A stretch of DNA of 64,000 bases, taken from positions 81,657 through 145,656 of the forward strand of contig JAFDYT010000002.1 in NCBI GenBank assembly GCA_018266055.1. The letters run 5' to 3'. The notes below the pieces were generated by a model. It saw only the letters and a list, made by a program, of their open reading frames with translations. It was not told where the DNA came from and ran no database searches. This stretch comes from Bacteroidota bacterium. Its GTDB lineage: Bacteria > Bacteroidota > Bacteroidia > Cytophagales > Cyclobacteriaceae. Each line of letters starts with the position of its first letter. The stretch's first letter is position 1. The position numbers were made by a program, and so were the translations under genes. This document shows, in pieces, positions 875 to 59,636 of the stretch.

Positions 875-3187
875 TCAACTCAAATCGGGCCGCATTCGCA
901 CAAACACGGGCTCGCGGAAAATCTTGTCGGGAGTGAAGGACGCAAACGTCACTTCGGCCATCAGCTTTGGTTCTACCCACGTGCTGGTTTTGTCGTCGAG
1001 GGTTTTCTGCGGAATAGGCTTCTTGATTTCTTCCAGCTTTTTGATGTCGGCAAAAATCTCTTTCAACGCAGCATCATCAAAGCCGCTGCCCACTTTGCCG
1101 CGGTACACCAGCTGATCGCCTTCGCGCTCGGCGATGTGCAGTCCACCAAACACATTCGCACGGTTTCCCTTGCCCTGGTTATAGCCGATAATCACCACTT
1201 CGCGCGTGTTGCGGATTTTGATTTTCACCCACGCGTCGCTGCGCTTGCCCACCAGGTATTTGCTGTCTTTGCGTTTGGCCATGATGCCTTCCAGGTCGTG
1301 TGCGCGTGCAGCCTCCAGCAAAAGCTGACCATCTTCTTCCACTTCGCTGATGCGGTACGCCGCACCGGTATGCACGGCATCGCGCAGCCACTCCCGCCGC
1401 TTGGTCAGCGGCTCGTTGATCAGACTGCGGCCGTCGAGGTACAGGCAATCGAAAATATAACAATACACCGGACTGCTCTTGCTTAATTTCTGAATGGTGG
1501 TGTCGCCGTTGCTTTGCAGGCGGTGAATCACTTTTTTAAATTCAGGTCTTCCTGTTTTGTCGAGGCACACAATCTCGGCATCAAATACCCCGCAGGTGGC
1601 GCGGAAGTTTTTCGCGTCGAGCAACTCGGGAAACTGTTTGGTGATGTTGTTTTTGTTGCGGCTGGTGATGCGCACTTGTCCGTCTTCCAGATAAATCAGC
1701 GCGCGGATGCCGTCCCACTTTACTTCATACAGGTAATCGTCCGAAGAAGGCGGCTCGCTGGCGCTCGCCGACAGCATGGGCTCAATGTCGCTGTGCAAAA
1801 AATTAAACTGCGGCTCGTCTATGCGCTCCAGCAAAAATTCTTTGTTCTTGATTTTATAAATCCGGTATTCACCGGAGAATTCTTTACTGCTGAGCCGGAA
1901 GTAAAACCCGTCTTTCTTGTCTTTGGTGATCTGGTATTTTCCCAACCCATAGATCCACATGTCGCCACCGCCATATTGTCCTTTCGGGATTTTGCCGTCG
2001 AAGGTGAGGTACTTCATCGGGTGATCTTCGGTTTGCACCGCCAGGCGTTTCACGCCGGGATGTGGCGGCAAGCCACGAGGCACCGCCCACGACTTTAACA
2101 CTCCCTCCTGCTCCAGCCGCAAGTCGTAATGCAGGTTGGTAGCATGATGTCGATGAACAACAAAGTTATTGCCACCGCCAATGTCGAGCTGAGGCTTCGG
2201 CTCCGACGTCTTTTCAAAGTCGCGCTTCTTCTCGTACGACTCCAGCTGTGCGGGTGTTTTCCTTTTCTTCGACACGGGCAATTCCTTAGGAACAACTTTC
2301 TTGCGTTGCGTATGAATCTCGACGGCATAAGCATCCATTCCTTCCCATGCATCGCCGTCGCGCAGCACTTTATCTACCGCATTGCGGATGTTAAATTCTT
2401 TGGGATCTTTCAGGTTGGCGAGTTCATCCCACGTCAGTGGCATAGAAACCGGTGCACCGTTTCGTCCGCGCAAACTATATGGCGACACAATGCTTTGTCC
2501 CGAACGGATGCGGTAAATATCGATCAGCACTCTCCCCTTGCGCGCTTCTTTCTTGATGTGCAGCGTAGTCGTCGCCGAATTCTTTTCTACAAAAGGTGTA
2601 GCGATAAGTTGTGCTGCCTCAAACACGGCATGAAAGTCGGCTTTGGGTTCGAGCGGGCAACAGATGTGTACTCCCTTGCCACCGGTAGTTTTCACAAACG
2701 CCGCGTAGCCGAAACTTTCCACATGCGCCTTGAGGTCGTGCGCCAAATCTACAATCTTAGAAAAAGTATATCCTTCCGGCGGGTCAAGGTCGAACACCAT
2801 GTAATCCGGAAAATCATAATTGGGCTTGCGACTGTGAAGCTGGTGTAGTTCAAGGGCCGCGAGGTTGGCCAGCCACACCAGCGACGCCGGCTCAGTGGCG
2901 ATGATGTAATCTTTCTTTTCCTTGCCGAGTACTTCAAACTCAATCCAGTCGGGTGCCCACTCAGGGCGGTTCTTCTGATAAAACATTTCGCCGCCTACGC
3001 CGTCAGGAAAACGAATCAGCGTCAACGCTCTTCCTTTGACATGCGTGAGCAACGTGGGCGCAATCGTCAGGTAATATTCAATCACCTCGGCTTTTACAAT
3101 GCCGTCTTCCGGGAAAAGCACCTTTTCAAGATTGGATAATTCAATCTTGCGCTTGCCGATAGTCGTCCAGGTTGATTTCTTTGCCAC
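875..3187 (-). CDS. ligD: Multifunctional non-homologous end-joining DNA ligase LigD
   Basis: ATP-dependent ligase of bacterial NHEJ, which seals double-strand breaks together with Ku. Domains run POL-PE-LIG. The primase-polymerase domain is at about 10-300 (FDLDPPEG gives the metal-binding DxD at 133/135; GGKGVHI near 170). The 3'-phosphoesterase domain is at about 335-450 (H345, H347-H348, LHYDLRLE with D355). The ligase domain starts near 470, with nucleotidyl Lys490 in KWDG. 770 aa is a normal length. The order matches mycobacterial LigD rather than the PE-LIG-POL order of Pseudomonas. The start is GTG; an in-frame TAA lies two codons upstream. No ku gene is in this window. Single gene, downstream of the repeat tract in transcription terms. 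Confidence 0.96.
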   Translation of the reverse strand: MAKKSTWTTIGKRKIELSNLEKVLFPEDGIVKAEVIEYYLTIAPTLLTHVKGRALTLIRFPDGVGGEMFYQKNRPEWAPDWIEFEVLGKEKKDYIIATEPASLVWLANLAALELHQLHSRKPNYDFPDYMVFDLDPPEGYTFSKIVDLAHDLKAHVESFGYAAFVKTTGGKGVHICCPLEPKADFHAVFEAAQLIATPFVEKNSATTTLHIKKEARKGRVLIDIYRIRSGQSIVSPYSLRGRNGAPVSMPLTWDELANLKDPKEFNIRNAVDKVLRDGDAWEGMDAYAVEIHTQRKKVVPKELPVSKKRKTPAQLESYEKKRDFEKTSEPKPQLDIGGGNNFVVHRHHATNLHYDLRLEQEGVLKSWAVPRGLPPHPGVKRLAVQTEDHPMKYLTFDGKIPKGQYGGGDMWIYGLGKYQITKDKKDGFYFRLSSKEFSGEYRIYKIKNKEFLLERIDEPQFNFLHSDIEPMLSASASEPPSSDDYLYEVKWDGIRALIYLEDGQVRITSRNKNNITKQFPELLDAKNFRATCGVFDAEIVCLDKTGRPEFKKVIHRLQSNGDTTIQKLSKSSPVYCYIFDCLYLDGRSLINEPLTKRREWLRDAVHTGAAYRISEVEEDGQLLLEAARAHDLEGIMAKRKDSKYLVGKRSDAWVKIKIRNTREVVIIGYNQGKGNRANVFGGLHIAEREGDQLVYRGKVGSGFDDAALKEIFADIKKLEEIKKPIPQKTLDDKTSTWVEPKLMAEVTFASFTPDKIFREPVFVRMRPDLS

Positions 3188-3449
3188 GTGTTACAGATAT
3201 GCAAACTACGGCTTTCGCCGCGATTTTCGCATTGTTTACTTATGCAACGTGGTGATTTACAGGCGGAAAAAATTGCAAAAACGGTATTTACCTTCGCTCG
3301 TGAATAGCGTATGAATCGACATCAAAGGGGCCTACAACAGGGCCTTCTGCGCCATACTCATGGACTAACACACTTTCTCTCTCTTTAGAAAAACGAAGTC
3401 ACTTCGTTTTTCACTTCACCGTATTTTCTTTCACTTAATCCAATAAACT

Positions 3450-3719
3450 ATGTGGGCTATTCTCGAATTGCTTGTACTCTCCGGTATTGTGTTGATTTCA
3501 CTGACCGAGTTCTTTTATCCGCTGGTGGTGGGAAAACCTTTGTTTCCCTCCTTCCGGAAACAAACGGAGACGCCACCGGAAACAACCTCATTAAAGGATG
3601 AACTATCCAAAGCCAAAGCGAAAGTCGCCGAGGTGAAAAATGTTCAAGATGAAGTAAATAAAAATTTTAAATCGGCCGAACAATTAAAAGAAGAGTCCGA
3701 TAACCTTTTTAACAAATAA
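3450..3719 (+). CDS. Small membrane-anchored coiled-coil protein
   Basis: 89 aa. One hydrophobic segment at about 3-26 (WAILELLVLSGIVLISLTEFF) is followed by a charged, heptad-rich tail from about 45 to the end (SKAKAKVAEVKNVQDEVNK), likely a coiled coil. It ends 5 bp before the SPFH gene and is surely cotranscribed with it. The layout suggests an accessory subunit or scaffold partner of the SPFH protein in the inner membrane; this is inference from context only. No family recognised. Confidence 0.75.
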   Translation: MWAILELLVLSGIVLISLTEFFYPLVVGKPLFPSFRKQTETPPETTSLKDELSKAKAKVAEVKNVQDEVNKNFKSAEQLKEESDNLFNK

Positions 3720-55149: not shown

Positions 55150-55947
55150 TCAGGCGTACATCTCCATGCTCTCTTCTTTGGCTACCGAACTCGGGTTGGC
55201 GATATCCAACATGCCAAAGCCTTTGTGTGAAAAATGCCCGAGGCCATTTTCATAAACAAACTGTTGCACCGGCTGCGGCGCATATAGCGTGAAGGGAAAC
55301 GTGTAGCCGCGCACTTCGTATTTCACATCCGAATCGTAGAGTGGATAGATGCGGGCGAATTTCTTGTGCGTGGCTTGAATCTTGGTCAGGTAGTCGTGGT
55401 CGGCTACCAATTGGAACTTATAAAAATTGTTGAGGTTGTCGGATTGAAACTTTCCACTCGCCTCCATGCGTGCGATGGTGTTGTCATAGAGAAGGTCCGA
55501 AAACTCGTCAACTTCCGGAGAGATAAAGCGCTTGCCCAACTCGTCATTGAAGGAAGCTTGCAAAAGCACGATCGGTGAAATGCACAAAAACTTCACAGCC
55601 TCACCTACTGTGGTGGTGGCTTCATTTTCATGCGATTCAGGTACAAGCTGCAGGTTGCCTATTTGCAATTCCTTTTGGCCAAAAAGTGTAGCCAGTAGGT
55701 AATCGATAAATTCTTTACTGGGCGATGAAAACACCAGCGTAACCCGTGAGGAATAAAAGTGAAGGCCTTTCCTACTGATCTTGATCTGGCCTTTGAGACC
55801 CGAGAAATTGTACTGGTTAAAGTTGAAGTATTCGCTTTTACCACCCAGCATGACCAATCCTTTTACCGCCTGAGCGAGCAAAAACTGGTGGTGGAAGGGC
55901 ACATAGGCTCCACGATTTTTCAGGGAAAAGACGATCCTGATCCTCAC
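55150..55947 (-). CDS. cas6: Orphan Cas6-family CRISPR RNA endoribonuclease
   Basis: 265 aa with GTG start (an in-frame TAA lies five codons upstream). Double ferredoxin-like RAMP architecture: an early beta strand (RIVFSLKN), then VPFHHQFLLAQAVKGLV (His19/His20 at the place where Cas6 catalytic histidines occur). The C-terminal glycine-rich loop GLGHFSHKGFGML is at 235-247, the Cas6 hallmark. Cas6 cuts pre-crRNA in the repeat. No array, no cas1/2/3 and no effector gene is seen within the window on either side, so it acts in trans or on another RNA. Confidence 0.88.
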   Translation of the reverse strand: MRIRIVFSLKNRGAYVPFHHQFLLAQAVKGLVMLGGKSEYFNFNQYNFSGLKGQIKISRKGLHFYSSRVTLVFSSPSKEFIDYLLATLFGQKELQIGNLQLVPESHENEATTTVGEAVKFLCISPIVLLQASFNDELGKRFISPEVDEFSDLLYDNTIARMEASGKFQSDNLNNFYKFQLVADHDYLTKIQATHKKFARIYPLYDSDVKYEVRGYTFPFTLYAPQPVQQFVYENGLGHFSHKGFGMLDIANPSSVAKEESMEMYA

Positions 55948-56084
55948 TGCCTCTACTTGTTAGCGGTAAAAAAATGCTTTAAATGTTAACCTCCGCCTAA
56001 AAAATTAAATCGAGCGGAAGGCTAAACTACTAAAAACCAGTTGAATCGACTGAATCAGTGTAAGGAATCTTTCAATTTTGTAGG

Positions 56085-57182
56085 CTAAACATTAAAGCGA
56101 AAGTGCATTATGTCGCCGTCTTCCACTACATATTCCTTGCCCTCTACGGCCAGTTTGCCGGCTTCGCGGCAGCCCACCTCGGTTTTATACTTCTGATAAT
56201 CAGCCAATTTGATTACCTCGGCCCGGATAAAGCCCTTTTCAAAATCGGTATGGATTACCCCGGCGGCCTGAGGAGCCTTCCAGCCGCGGTGGATCGTCCA
56301 GGCGCGAACCTCCTTTTCGCCGGCGGTGAAGTATGTAATAAGATTGAGCAAATGATAGGCAGCGTGCACCAGCCGGTTTAGCCCTGACTCTTTAAGGCCA
56401 TATTCCGAAAGAAAAACTTCGCGGTCAGCTTCGCTTTCCAGTTCGGCAATCTGCGCCTCAATGGCGGCACACACCATGACCACTTCCGCGCCTTCGTCTT
56501 TTACAAGATTCTTAAGCGCCTCCACGTGCTTGTTGCCGGTGTGGATAGACTGCTCATCCACATTGGCCACGTAGATCACTGGCTTGTCGGTGAGAAGTTG
56601 CAGGTCTTCAATTGCTTTGCGGTCTTCGGCATCCATCACCACGGCACGGGCGTTCTTTCCGGCCAGCAGGGCTTCTTTAAATTGGCTCAGGGCAGCGAAT
56701 TCCTTTTTTGCTTTGGCATCGCCGCTTTTGGCTGTGCGCTCCACTTTGCTGATTTTCTTTTCTACCGAGTCCAGGTCTTTCAACTGAAGTTCGGTGTCGA
56801 TGATTTCCTTGTCGGCGATAGGATCAACCTTGCCACCTACGTGAATGATATTGTCGTTTTCGAAGCAGCGCACTACATGGGCGATGGCGTCTACTTCGCG
56901 GATATTGGCCAAAAACTGATTGCCCAGCCCCTCGCCTTTGCTGGCACCTTTCACCAGGCCGGCAATGTCCACAAACTCAAAGGTGGTGGGCAGCACACGC
57001 TGCGGGTTGACGAGGCCTTCCAGTATTTTAAGGCGCTCATCGGGCACGGTAATGACGCCTACGTTAGGCTCAATCGTACAAAAAGGAAAATTGGCAGCCT
57101 CGGCCTTGTTGTTGGAGATTGCATTGAATAATGTTGATTTGCCTACGTTGGGAAGGCCTACTATACCGCATTTAAGTCCCAT
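56085..57182 (-). CDS. ychF: YchF (Obg-like ATPase, OLA1 family)
   Basis: 365 aa. P-loop GLPNVGKS (9-16) and [20 protein letters not shown] as G3. G4 deviates from NKxD (VANVDEQS), the reason these Obg relatives prefer ATP. A coiled coil at about 125-200 and a C-terminal TGS domain ([34 protein letters not shown]) follow. It binds ribosomes and is linked to stress response. Full length and conserved. Confidence 0.97.
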
Positions 57183-57347: not shown

Positions 57348-57710
57348 TTAGTCCCAGCGCAATTCTGTGTCGGTCGAGGAAGGTTTCCCTTCGCTCACTA
57401 CCTCCTTTTCTTCGTGGCGGTGTTCGAAAGCTGAAAAATCCACGCCGGGCATCAACTCGTTTTTCACATGGTTTACCGTGTTGTTGAGGGCATCCATGAA
57501 TTTGTTAAAGTCTTCTTTATAAAGGAATATTTTGTGTTTTTCGTAGGTAAAGCCTTCGTTGTCTTTGTTAAACCTCTTCTTGCTTTCGGTGATCGTCACA
57601 TAAAAGTCGTTGGCCCGGGTCGATTTCACATCAAAGAAGTAGGTGCGTTTCCCTGCTTTTACTTTTTCGGAAAAAATCTCGTCACGCCCGTTATTCTTAT
57701 TCTCTTCCAC
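57348..57710 (-). CDS. PUR-family nucleic-acid-binding protein (DUF3276)
   Basis: 120 aa, GTG start (VEENKNNGRDEIFSEKV). The core EIFSEKVKAGKRTYFFDVKSTRANDFYVTITESKKR... and KHKIFLYKEDFNKFMDALNNTVNHVKNEL is one PUR repeat, the single-stranded DNA/RNA-binding fold also known from Borrelia BpuR and eukaryotic Pur-alpha. The acidic tail (FEHRHEEKEVVSEG) is disordered-looking. Short, highly conserved in Bacteroidetes; probably dimeric. Own promoter and terminator. Confidence 0.93.
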   Translation of the reverse strand: MEENKNNGRDEIFSEKVKAGKRTYFFDVKSTRANDFYVTITESKKRFNKDNEGFTYEKHKIFLYKEDFNKFMDALNNTVNHVKNELMPGVDFSAFEHRHEEKEVVSEGKPSSTDTELRWD

Positions 57711-59015: not shown

Positions 59016-59636
59016 ATGAGAAAACGAGTCATTGTCTACGTTGACGGCTTTAATTTCTACTATGGCTTAAAAACCAAGGGGTGGAGAAAGTATTATTGGC
59101 TTGATCTATATAAATTCTTTTCACTTTTTTTATTAGACCATCAGGAGCTTGTTCAAGTAAATTACTTTTCCGCTACTCCACATCATGACGGTAAACAAAA
59201 TCGTCAATCCAAATTTTTTCAAGCTAATAGATTAAATCAAAACTTTAAACTTCATTTAGGTAAGTTCCTTAAAAAGGAGATAACCTGTAATCATTGTGAC
59301 AAAACCCATGAAACTTTCGAAGAAAAAGAATCTGATGTTAGAGTAGCCACAAGAATGATTGCGGATGTTGTCAATGACAAGTGTGATATATCGATACTTG
59401 TTAGTGCGGATAGCGATTTAATACCTCCAATTGAGTTTATAAGAGAATATAAACCGTCTCATAAGATATTCGTTTTCTTTCCGCCAAAAAGATGGTCGAA
59501 TGATTTATCTGGATTAAGCGATTTTTTTACAAGGCTTGACAGGCATGAATCAAAATTCCAATCTTCACTTTTGCCTTTAGAAATTGATAACCTAAAGGGT
59601 TATATAATTAAGTGTCCTGATAAATGGAAGATTTAG
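59016..59636 (+). CDS. NYN (PIN-like) domain nuclease
   Basis: 206 aa. NYN/LabA-type PIN fold: DGFNFYYGLK (Asp10, Asn13), EKESDVRVATRM (Asp107) and SILVSADSDLIPPI (Asp132, Asp134) supply the conserved acidic metal-binding residues of this RNase family. An extra CNHC pair (Cys91, Cys94) suggests a zinc knuckle near the middle. The gene is visibly AT-rich compared with the DUF58 gene upstream, and its leader has a terminator-like hairpin against the start codon. Both fit a recently acquired accessory gene, perhaps in RNA decay or defence. The target RNA is unknown. Confidence 0.88.
   Translation: MRKRVIVYVDGFNFYYGLKTKGWRKYYWLDLYKFFSLFLLDHQELVQVNYFSATPHHDGKQNRQSKFFQANRLNQNFKLHLGKFLKKEITCNHCDKTHETFEEKESDVRVATRMIADVVNDKCDISILVSADSDLIPPIEFIREYKPSHKIFVFFPPKRWSNDLSGLSDFFTRLDRHESKFQSSLLPLEIDNLKGYIIKCPDKWKI

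Follow-up and report, generated by a model that had tools for sequence, protein, structure and literature searches.

A slowly evolving orphan Cas6 lacking the canonical catalytic site, with a conserved leader, in Cyclobacteriaceae and related Cytophagales

Introduction

CRISPR proteins are usually viewed as optional and fast-changing parts of an immune system. The gene discussed here, a cas6 on the minus strand (55150..55947) of a 64-kb stretch of Bacteroidota DNA (hereafter, the window), raises the question of what a Cas6 does when it stands alone. The initial annotation described it as a solitary cas6 lying between a propeller gene and ychF, took its motifs to be intact, argued from them against decay, and suggested that the protein may process structured RNAs other than CRISPR transcripts if the genome has no array. 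We found no paper on a CRISPR-free Cas6 of Cytophagales in the open-access literature, and earlier reports may exist elsewhere.

Results

The open reading frame lies where it had been annotated and encodes 265 amino acids from a GTG start codon; profile matches, its distribution in the family and a structure match all identify it as cas6. The protein exceeds the curated cut-offs of both PF01881 (71.7 bits; cut-off 23) and TIGR01877 (63.4; cut-off 58.65), and its best PADLOC match is the Cas6b model. The nearest PDB sequences are 3UFC (1.4e-15), 5YI6 and PH0350 (3QJJ/3QJP), followed by PfuCas6. An AlphaFold model built from 35 aligned orthologues (pLDDT 89.8, pTM 0.86) has solved Cas6 structures as its best matches (5YI6, 3QJJ, 3UFC and 3I4H, TM-score by target ~0.8), and on this model the protein is predicted to have the two RAMP domains and the C-terminal glycine-rich loop of the Cas6 family. 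The loop (residues 235-246; 55210..55245, minus strand) contains five residues, G235, G237, G243, G245 and M246, that are invariant in an alignment of 120 distinct orphan proteins.

Both neighbours are as annotated, with ychF (56085..57182, minus strand, placed by open reading frames and synteny) directly upstream. No CRISPR-like array was present in the window when direct repeats with copies of at least 20 nt at a spacing of up to 200 nt were sought; the sole repeat family under these settings is a 21-nt tandem repeat at 9-218, on the extreme window edge. Cas genes are absent nearby, the scan for cas families having covered eight proteins around the gene, and Rfam gave zero matches in the window at gathering scores. 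Two further genes of the window deserve mention. Upstream of ychF lies a 120-aa gene (57348-57710, minus strand) which we take to be PUR-domain-like and for which GTG is the start codon in 86 of 87 related loci, and the protein encoded at 59016-59636 (plus strand) resembles the PADLOC candidate defence family HEC-09 (5.7e-63), with a weak match to an NYN nuclease model.

The whole genome (4.79 Mb in 21 contigs, 100% complete) was searched for Cas1, RAMP, Cas3 and HNH/Cas9 proteins and for arrays through the repeat type of the family, and no CRISPR partner was detected. Neither Cas1 nor RAMP proteins (PF03787) were found by profile search, the Cas3 core gave only weak matches below the cut-off, of the kind that other helicases give, and the lone HNH_4 match lies in a 183-aa open frame, well below the size of a Cas9. 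The family repeat type has no copy in this genome at up to three mismatches, the same search recovering 5 to 163 copies in each of four control genomes. Twelve further carriers without Cas1, six of them single-contig assemblies (G163, G028, G030, G120, G190 and G116), likewise had no RAMP protein, no Cas3 over the cut-off, no Cas9-sized HNH protein and no array of the family repeat, with a lone three-mismatch match each in G017 and G182. As a separate observation, a small HNH_4 protein over the cut-off (open frames of 169-198 aa) occurs in all 13 of the Cas1-less genomes searched (G000:C17:563011-563121 and the 12 others).

The gene is not a one-genome curiosity; it is conserved throughout much of one family and in a sizeable part of the order. 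Of the 196 genomes sampled from the Cyclobacteriaceae-like family 169 carry it, representing 75 of 84 genera, with identities of 52-77% among the matches listed, the window's own match aside. Order-wide, 178 of 390 genomes match the search profile, strong matches (E < 1e-58) being found in this family (f1) and 12 others (f56, f58, f59, f61, f63, f67-f72 and f74) and weak ones in G620 and G671, while nine families (f2, f3, f57, f60, f62, f64, f65, f66 and f73) have no member among the 178. Carriers of relatives include Ohtaekwangia koreensis, Chryseolinea serpens, Dawidia soli and Fulvivirga sp. In a search of the phylum, 58 of 395 genomes match: nine genomes of the family at E < 1e-129 and the other 49 at E 4e-19 or weaker, and the 21 of these 49 that were examined (L140-L160) have the canonical Cas6 form. 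A phage origin was considered and dropped, none of 182 pattern-matching viral contig stretches encoding a relative.

Inheritance is vertical. In all 50 family loci examined, ychF lies upstream of cas6 and shares its strand, with gaps of 94 to 1140 nt, and cas6 and ychF distances correlate (Mantel r 0.73 over 59 loci, 0 of 999 permutations). Among 20 further loci, 18 of them outside the family, ychF is kept in ten (8 of the 18), is missing from the fetched flanks (~6 kb per side) in nine, and in one (L172) the contig ends so that the downstream gene alone is retained. The loci without ychF share neighbours between close pairs only, which indicates that the conserved unit is the cas6 gene alone. 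The idea of ychF as a functional partner is weakened by the same observations, ychF being outside the flanks in 9 of the 18 other-family loci. In a tree of 35 orphan, 29 canonical and 5 short Cas6 proteins the orphans fall on one side of a branch with SH-aLRT 97, the program having issued a long-branch warning.

Constraint on the protein is strong. Of 239 close pairs, 44 have dS < 2 and give a median dN/dS of ~0.02; in the other 195, dS is higher or incomputable. Beside the initiator, 48 positions are invariant in 120 of 120 distinct orphan proteins and 68 reach 97%. No listed family match has an internal stop codon; four listed order-wide matches do (G023, G633, G685 and G742), of which G023 is clean in the family search. 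The initial annotation's conclusion that the gene is not decaying is supported. That it is what is left, in decay, of a CRISPR locus since lost, as the absence of cas genes nearby might suggest, has next to no probability given its distribution in family and order, its dN/dS and its invariant positions.

We then compared the orphan Cas6 with the CRISPR loci of the same family. Cas1 occurs in 75 of 196 family genomes; comparing the listings by hand gives 70 genomes with both genes, 99 with the orphan alone, 5 with Cas1 alone and 22 with neither, a mildly positive association (odds ratio ~3 in this hand table, kinship ignored). More than one Cas6 match was seen in 20 family genomes, all with Cas1. 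Twelve CRISPR stretches were examined around Cas1 genes picked among the best-scoring ones: nine contain a canonical Cas6 and ten an array (by a simple finder), and in the remaining three no Cas6 was found inside the stretch. Five of the CRISPR loci (L194, L197, L199, L200 and L201) encode a second Cas6 beside the canonical one, a Cas6b of 218 aa in which the helix-1 catalytic position is a His and the His loop is missing. For a near-universal, slowly evolving and vertically inherited gene that is frequent in genomes without detectable CRISPR, crRNA processing is hard to credit.

The catalytic positions of Pyrococcus Cas6 were located on the orphan proteins with the help of a profile alignment to 3PKM, on which we assume the numbering of the PfuCas6 residues. 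Tyr31, His46 and Lys52 are named as the catalytic residues of PfuCas6 in PMC3652601. In the alignment, read by eye, Tyr31 falls on orphan residue 29, which is K in 105 of 120 proteins and mostly Q, R, N, D or E otherwise; His46 falls in an insertion missing from the orphans; and Lys52 corresponds to residue 44, which is variable. None of the three canonical residues therefore appears to be kept. The gap left by the insertion is visible at residues 35-46 (55810..55845, minus strand), where alignments place the longer loop with the catalytic His of canonical Cas6, and the Q21-S49 spacing is 23-29 in the orphans versus 40-42 in full-length canonical proteins. Canonical Cas6s of the phylum have the His in 21 of 21 cases (one, L145, is partial) and the Tyr in the 20 full-length ones, and all nine CRISPR-linked canonical Cas6s of the family have both.

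Other residues are conserved. H20, K52, S66, R199 and R213 are invariant in 120 of 120 orphan proteins, and H19 and H63 are present in 117. H19 and H20 both belong to a PFHHQ motif (residues 17-21; 55885..55899, minus strand) that alignment and model put at the start of helix 1. The view that the motifs are intact is therefore only partly right: the glycine-rich loop and PFHHQ are invariant or nearly so, whereas the canonical Tyr and the His-bearing loop are gone, and His19 and His20, though conserved, do not sit at the catalytic positions known from Pyrococcus Cas6. Judging from these alignments, catalysis by the canonical route is unlikely. Loss of the triad does not imply inactivity, because a Sulfolobus Cas6 needs no histidine for its activity (PMC3652601) and Cas6 active sites differ widely among subfamilies, as stated in PMC3727216. 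The invariant H20, K52, R199 and R213 together with the near-invariant H19 and H63 could form a relocated catalytic site.

The region ahead of the gene is conserved as well. In the window, on the minus strand, a promoter-like element recognised by sequence conservation, TTTAGTAGTTTAG (56022..56034), which we take to resemble the Bacteroidota -7 element, precedes a hairpin found by an arm search, with CTTCCGCT (56013..56020) as its 5' arm and GGCGGAGG (55990..55997) as its 3' arm, G-U being among the pairs. From sequence and leader alignment, a first run of six U (55999..56004) lies in the hairpin loop beside the 3' arm, and a second of seven (55968..55974) lies ~20 nt ahead of the GTG start codon (55945..55947).

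The start codon is weak throughout the family: a comparison of 105 distinct loci gave GTG in 52, TTG in 53 and ATG in none, with at least 12 switches between GTG and TTG on the family tree. The adjoining ychF starts with ATG in 142 of 142 loci (not deduplicated), and ATG opens 385 of 544 surrounding mechanical gene calls, an underestimate as the longest frame was taken.

Runs of T are similarly frequent. Within 40 nt of the start, at least five T occur in 103 of 105 family loci and six in 90 of 105; in the comparison with other leaders six T occur in 84 of 103 cas6 leaders versus 67 of 544. At least two T6 runs within 90 nt were found in 71 of 102 distinct cas6 leaders, compared to a maximum of 33 in 200 dinucleotide shuffles, and in 3 of 101 ychF, 0 of 77 PUR and 0 of 26 DUF58 leaders. 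The presence of at least one such run (90 of 102; shuffles 70 on average and 80 at most) is less striking.

The hairpin was assessed downstream of the promoter-like element in the closer genera (leaders L001-L030 and L051-L130), where an anchor was obtained for 79 of 82 distinct leaders. The stem score was reached by 69 of the 79, compared to 22 on average and 36 at most in letter shuffles, the one control used here. In an alignment of 31 leaders (A4), four of six pairs change on both sides and the covariation score was reached in 0 of 500 shuffles (kinship ignored), and slid partners score below the true pairing; the pair-type score was matched in 34 of 500 shuffles, and for one of the six positions pairing breaks down in 27 of the 31 leaders. 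Consensus folding of the alignment of the window's own clade (A3) gave no structure because the arm spacing varies. A first arm search had been discarded: its mean of 6.47 was indistinct from that of swapped arms (6.16, maximum 6.83), and the wrong element had been anchored in many leaders.

Of 103 cas6 leaders, 46 have a U-run inside a stem-loop beside the 3' arm, versus 13 of 544 others, several of these 13 being ychF leaders. The position of the run differs among clades: in the window's clade it lies within the loop, ahead of the 3' arm, and in L006 and L097 it directly follows the hairpin, terminator-like. In 14 of 15 genomes a leader model (R1) picked out a single site, which was the cas6 leader each time; the model was built from the same leaders or near-copies, so the absence of a second site, with 150 of ~1600-3700 candidates scored per genome, is its sole informative part. 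A regulon sharing this leader was rejected on the candidates scored. R1 has no match in the window's genome, where the leader is of another subtype.

Outside the family the leader features weaken and the picture is mixed. T6 within 40 nt occurs in 24 of 56 distinct loci versus 14 of 115 background leaders (23 of 57 with cruder anchors), and ATG starts are found in 18 of the 56, with 5 of 5 in f74 and, at the other end, GTG in 7 of 7 in f59. In three f58 loci TTA was read as the start, the true start being a GTG one codon up. The motif search behind the start-codon counts dropped L072, L223 and L238, and L238 starts with ATG.

Discussion

The retained fold, the loss of the canonical site, the conserved structured leader and the weak start codon, taken together, fit a self-regulating RNA-binding protein. 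We propose that a descendant of Cas6 parted from CRISPR long ago and has since been passed on vertically in the Cyclobacteriaceae-like family and related Cytophagales, probably retaining the two-domain RAMP fold and glycine loop while giving up the Tyr/His catalytic site. Its main role would be the sequence-selective binding of cellular RNA, perhaps in the manner in which the inactive Pyrococcus Cas6nc wraps single-stranded RNA. Its own leader, in which a short 5' hairpin and U-runs come ahead of a weak GTG or TTG start, is a likely target, and protein bound there may curb translation of the cas6 mRNA or make that mRNA less stable. We regard this reading, in which the orphan works apart from CRISPR by binding cellular RNA, perhaps with nuclease activity retained, and regulates its own mRNA, as evenly poised; the suggestion of the initial annotation that the role lies in RNA outside CRISPR still appears the best one, in a genome whose searches returned no CRISPR. 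A wider proposal, offered tentatively and with some doubt, is that of a housekeeping RNA regulator across much of the order, which would bind, or cut through a new site, U-rich hairpins in cellular mRNAs, its own first, and give Cas6 a global post-transcriptional role outside immunity.

The main rival to RNA binding is a relocated catalytic site. The protein would then still be a sequence-specific endoribonuclease, its site moved or rebuilt, cutting cellular hairpin RNAs and perhaps its own leader at the hairpin base; the invariant basic residues and the diversity of known Cas6 active sites speak for it, and the short leader hairpin is a usual kind of Cas6 substrate, but with every Pyrococcus catalytic position unkept, the helix-1 position varying, and 3UFC and 3QJJ, described as non-catalytic or inactive, among the nearest solved relatives, we consider it rather unlikely. 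A different account leaves Cas6 binding aside and reads the leader as an intrinsic terminator, or an attenuator, for transcripts of ychF, joined to an ordinary promoter. The run directly after the hairpin in L006 and L097, the promoter-like element ahead of the hairpin and the ychF leaders among the background stem-loops agree with this; however, the run lies inside the loop in the window's clade, U runs precede the start also where the gene is not beside ychF (f56, f58 and f71), and the avoidance of ATG is left unexplained, which makes this account unlikely.

It is very improbable that the orphan is a shared crRNA processor serving CRISPR loci in trans wherever a strain has them. Most type III systems apparently use a Cas6 supplied in trans, according to PMC12669027, and the association with Cas1 is slightly positive; yet Cas1 is missing from 99 of the 169 carriers, the 13 Cas1-less carriers searched genome-wide yielded no CRISPR component of the kinds sought, most family CRISPR stretches have a canonical-site Cas6 of their own, and vertical inheritance under such constraint is unlike an optional immune helper. 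Here one CRISPR protein has become slow-evolving and near-universal in a family, many of whose genomes have no CRISPR genes that could be found. Exaptation of Cas6 can be tested directly in this natural setting, as can the question of which RNAs other than repeats the Cas6 fold recognises, and the conserved leader is the first candidate target RNA. There is also a practical side, as automated annotation would label a CRISPR enzyme in many CRISPR-free genomes.

Compared with the Cas6 of CRISPR loci (TIGR01877, PF01881; PADLOC Cas6b), the orphan passes the same cut-offs and shares the two-domain RAMP fold and the C-terminal glycine-rich loop, but it forms its own clade, without a detected array or cas partners and without the canonical Tyr/His/Lys triad. 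There is a likeness to Pyrococcus Cas6nc: 3UFC and 3QJJ, the latter of which we take to be PhCas6nc, rank within the top three solved structures (TM-score by target ~0.80), and the orphan appears to combine, as they do, a kept fold with the loss of canonical catalytic residues. PfuCas6nc (3UFC) is called non-catalytic in PMC3652601, and PhCas6nc inactive in PMC3727216. These proteins are archaeal, whereas the orphans have in addition a conserved leader, a conserved HHQ and further basic residues that are invariant. Sulfolobus Cas6 (Sso1437) resembles the orphan in having an active site without histidine (PMC3652601); it differs in being an active crRNA processor in which Lys28 weighs most, while the helix-1 Lys of the orphan, at residue 29, is not kept in every orphan family. 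Solo-Cas4, as described in PMC5704561, offers the parallel of a cas gene retained outside CRISPR loci; it is another protein, and the orphan Cas6 is a near-universal, vertically inherited gene of its family.
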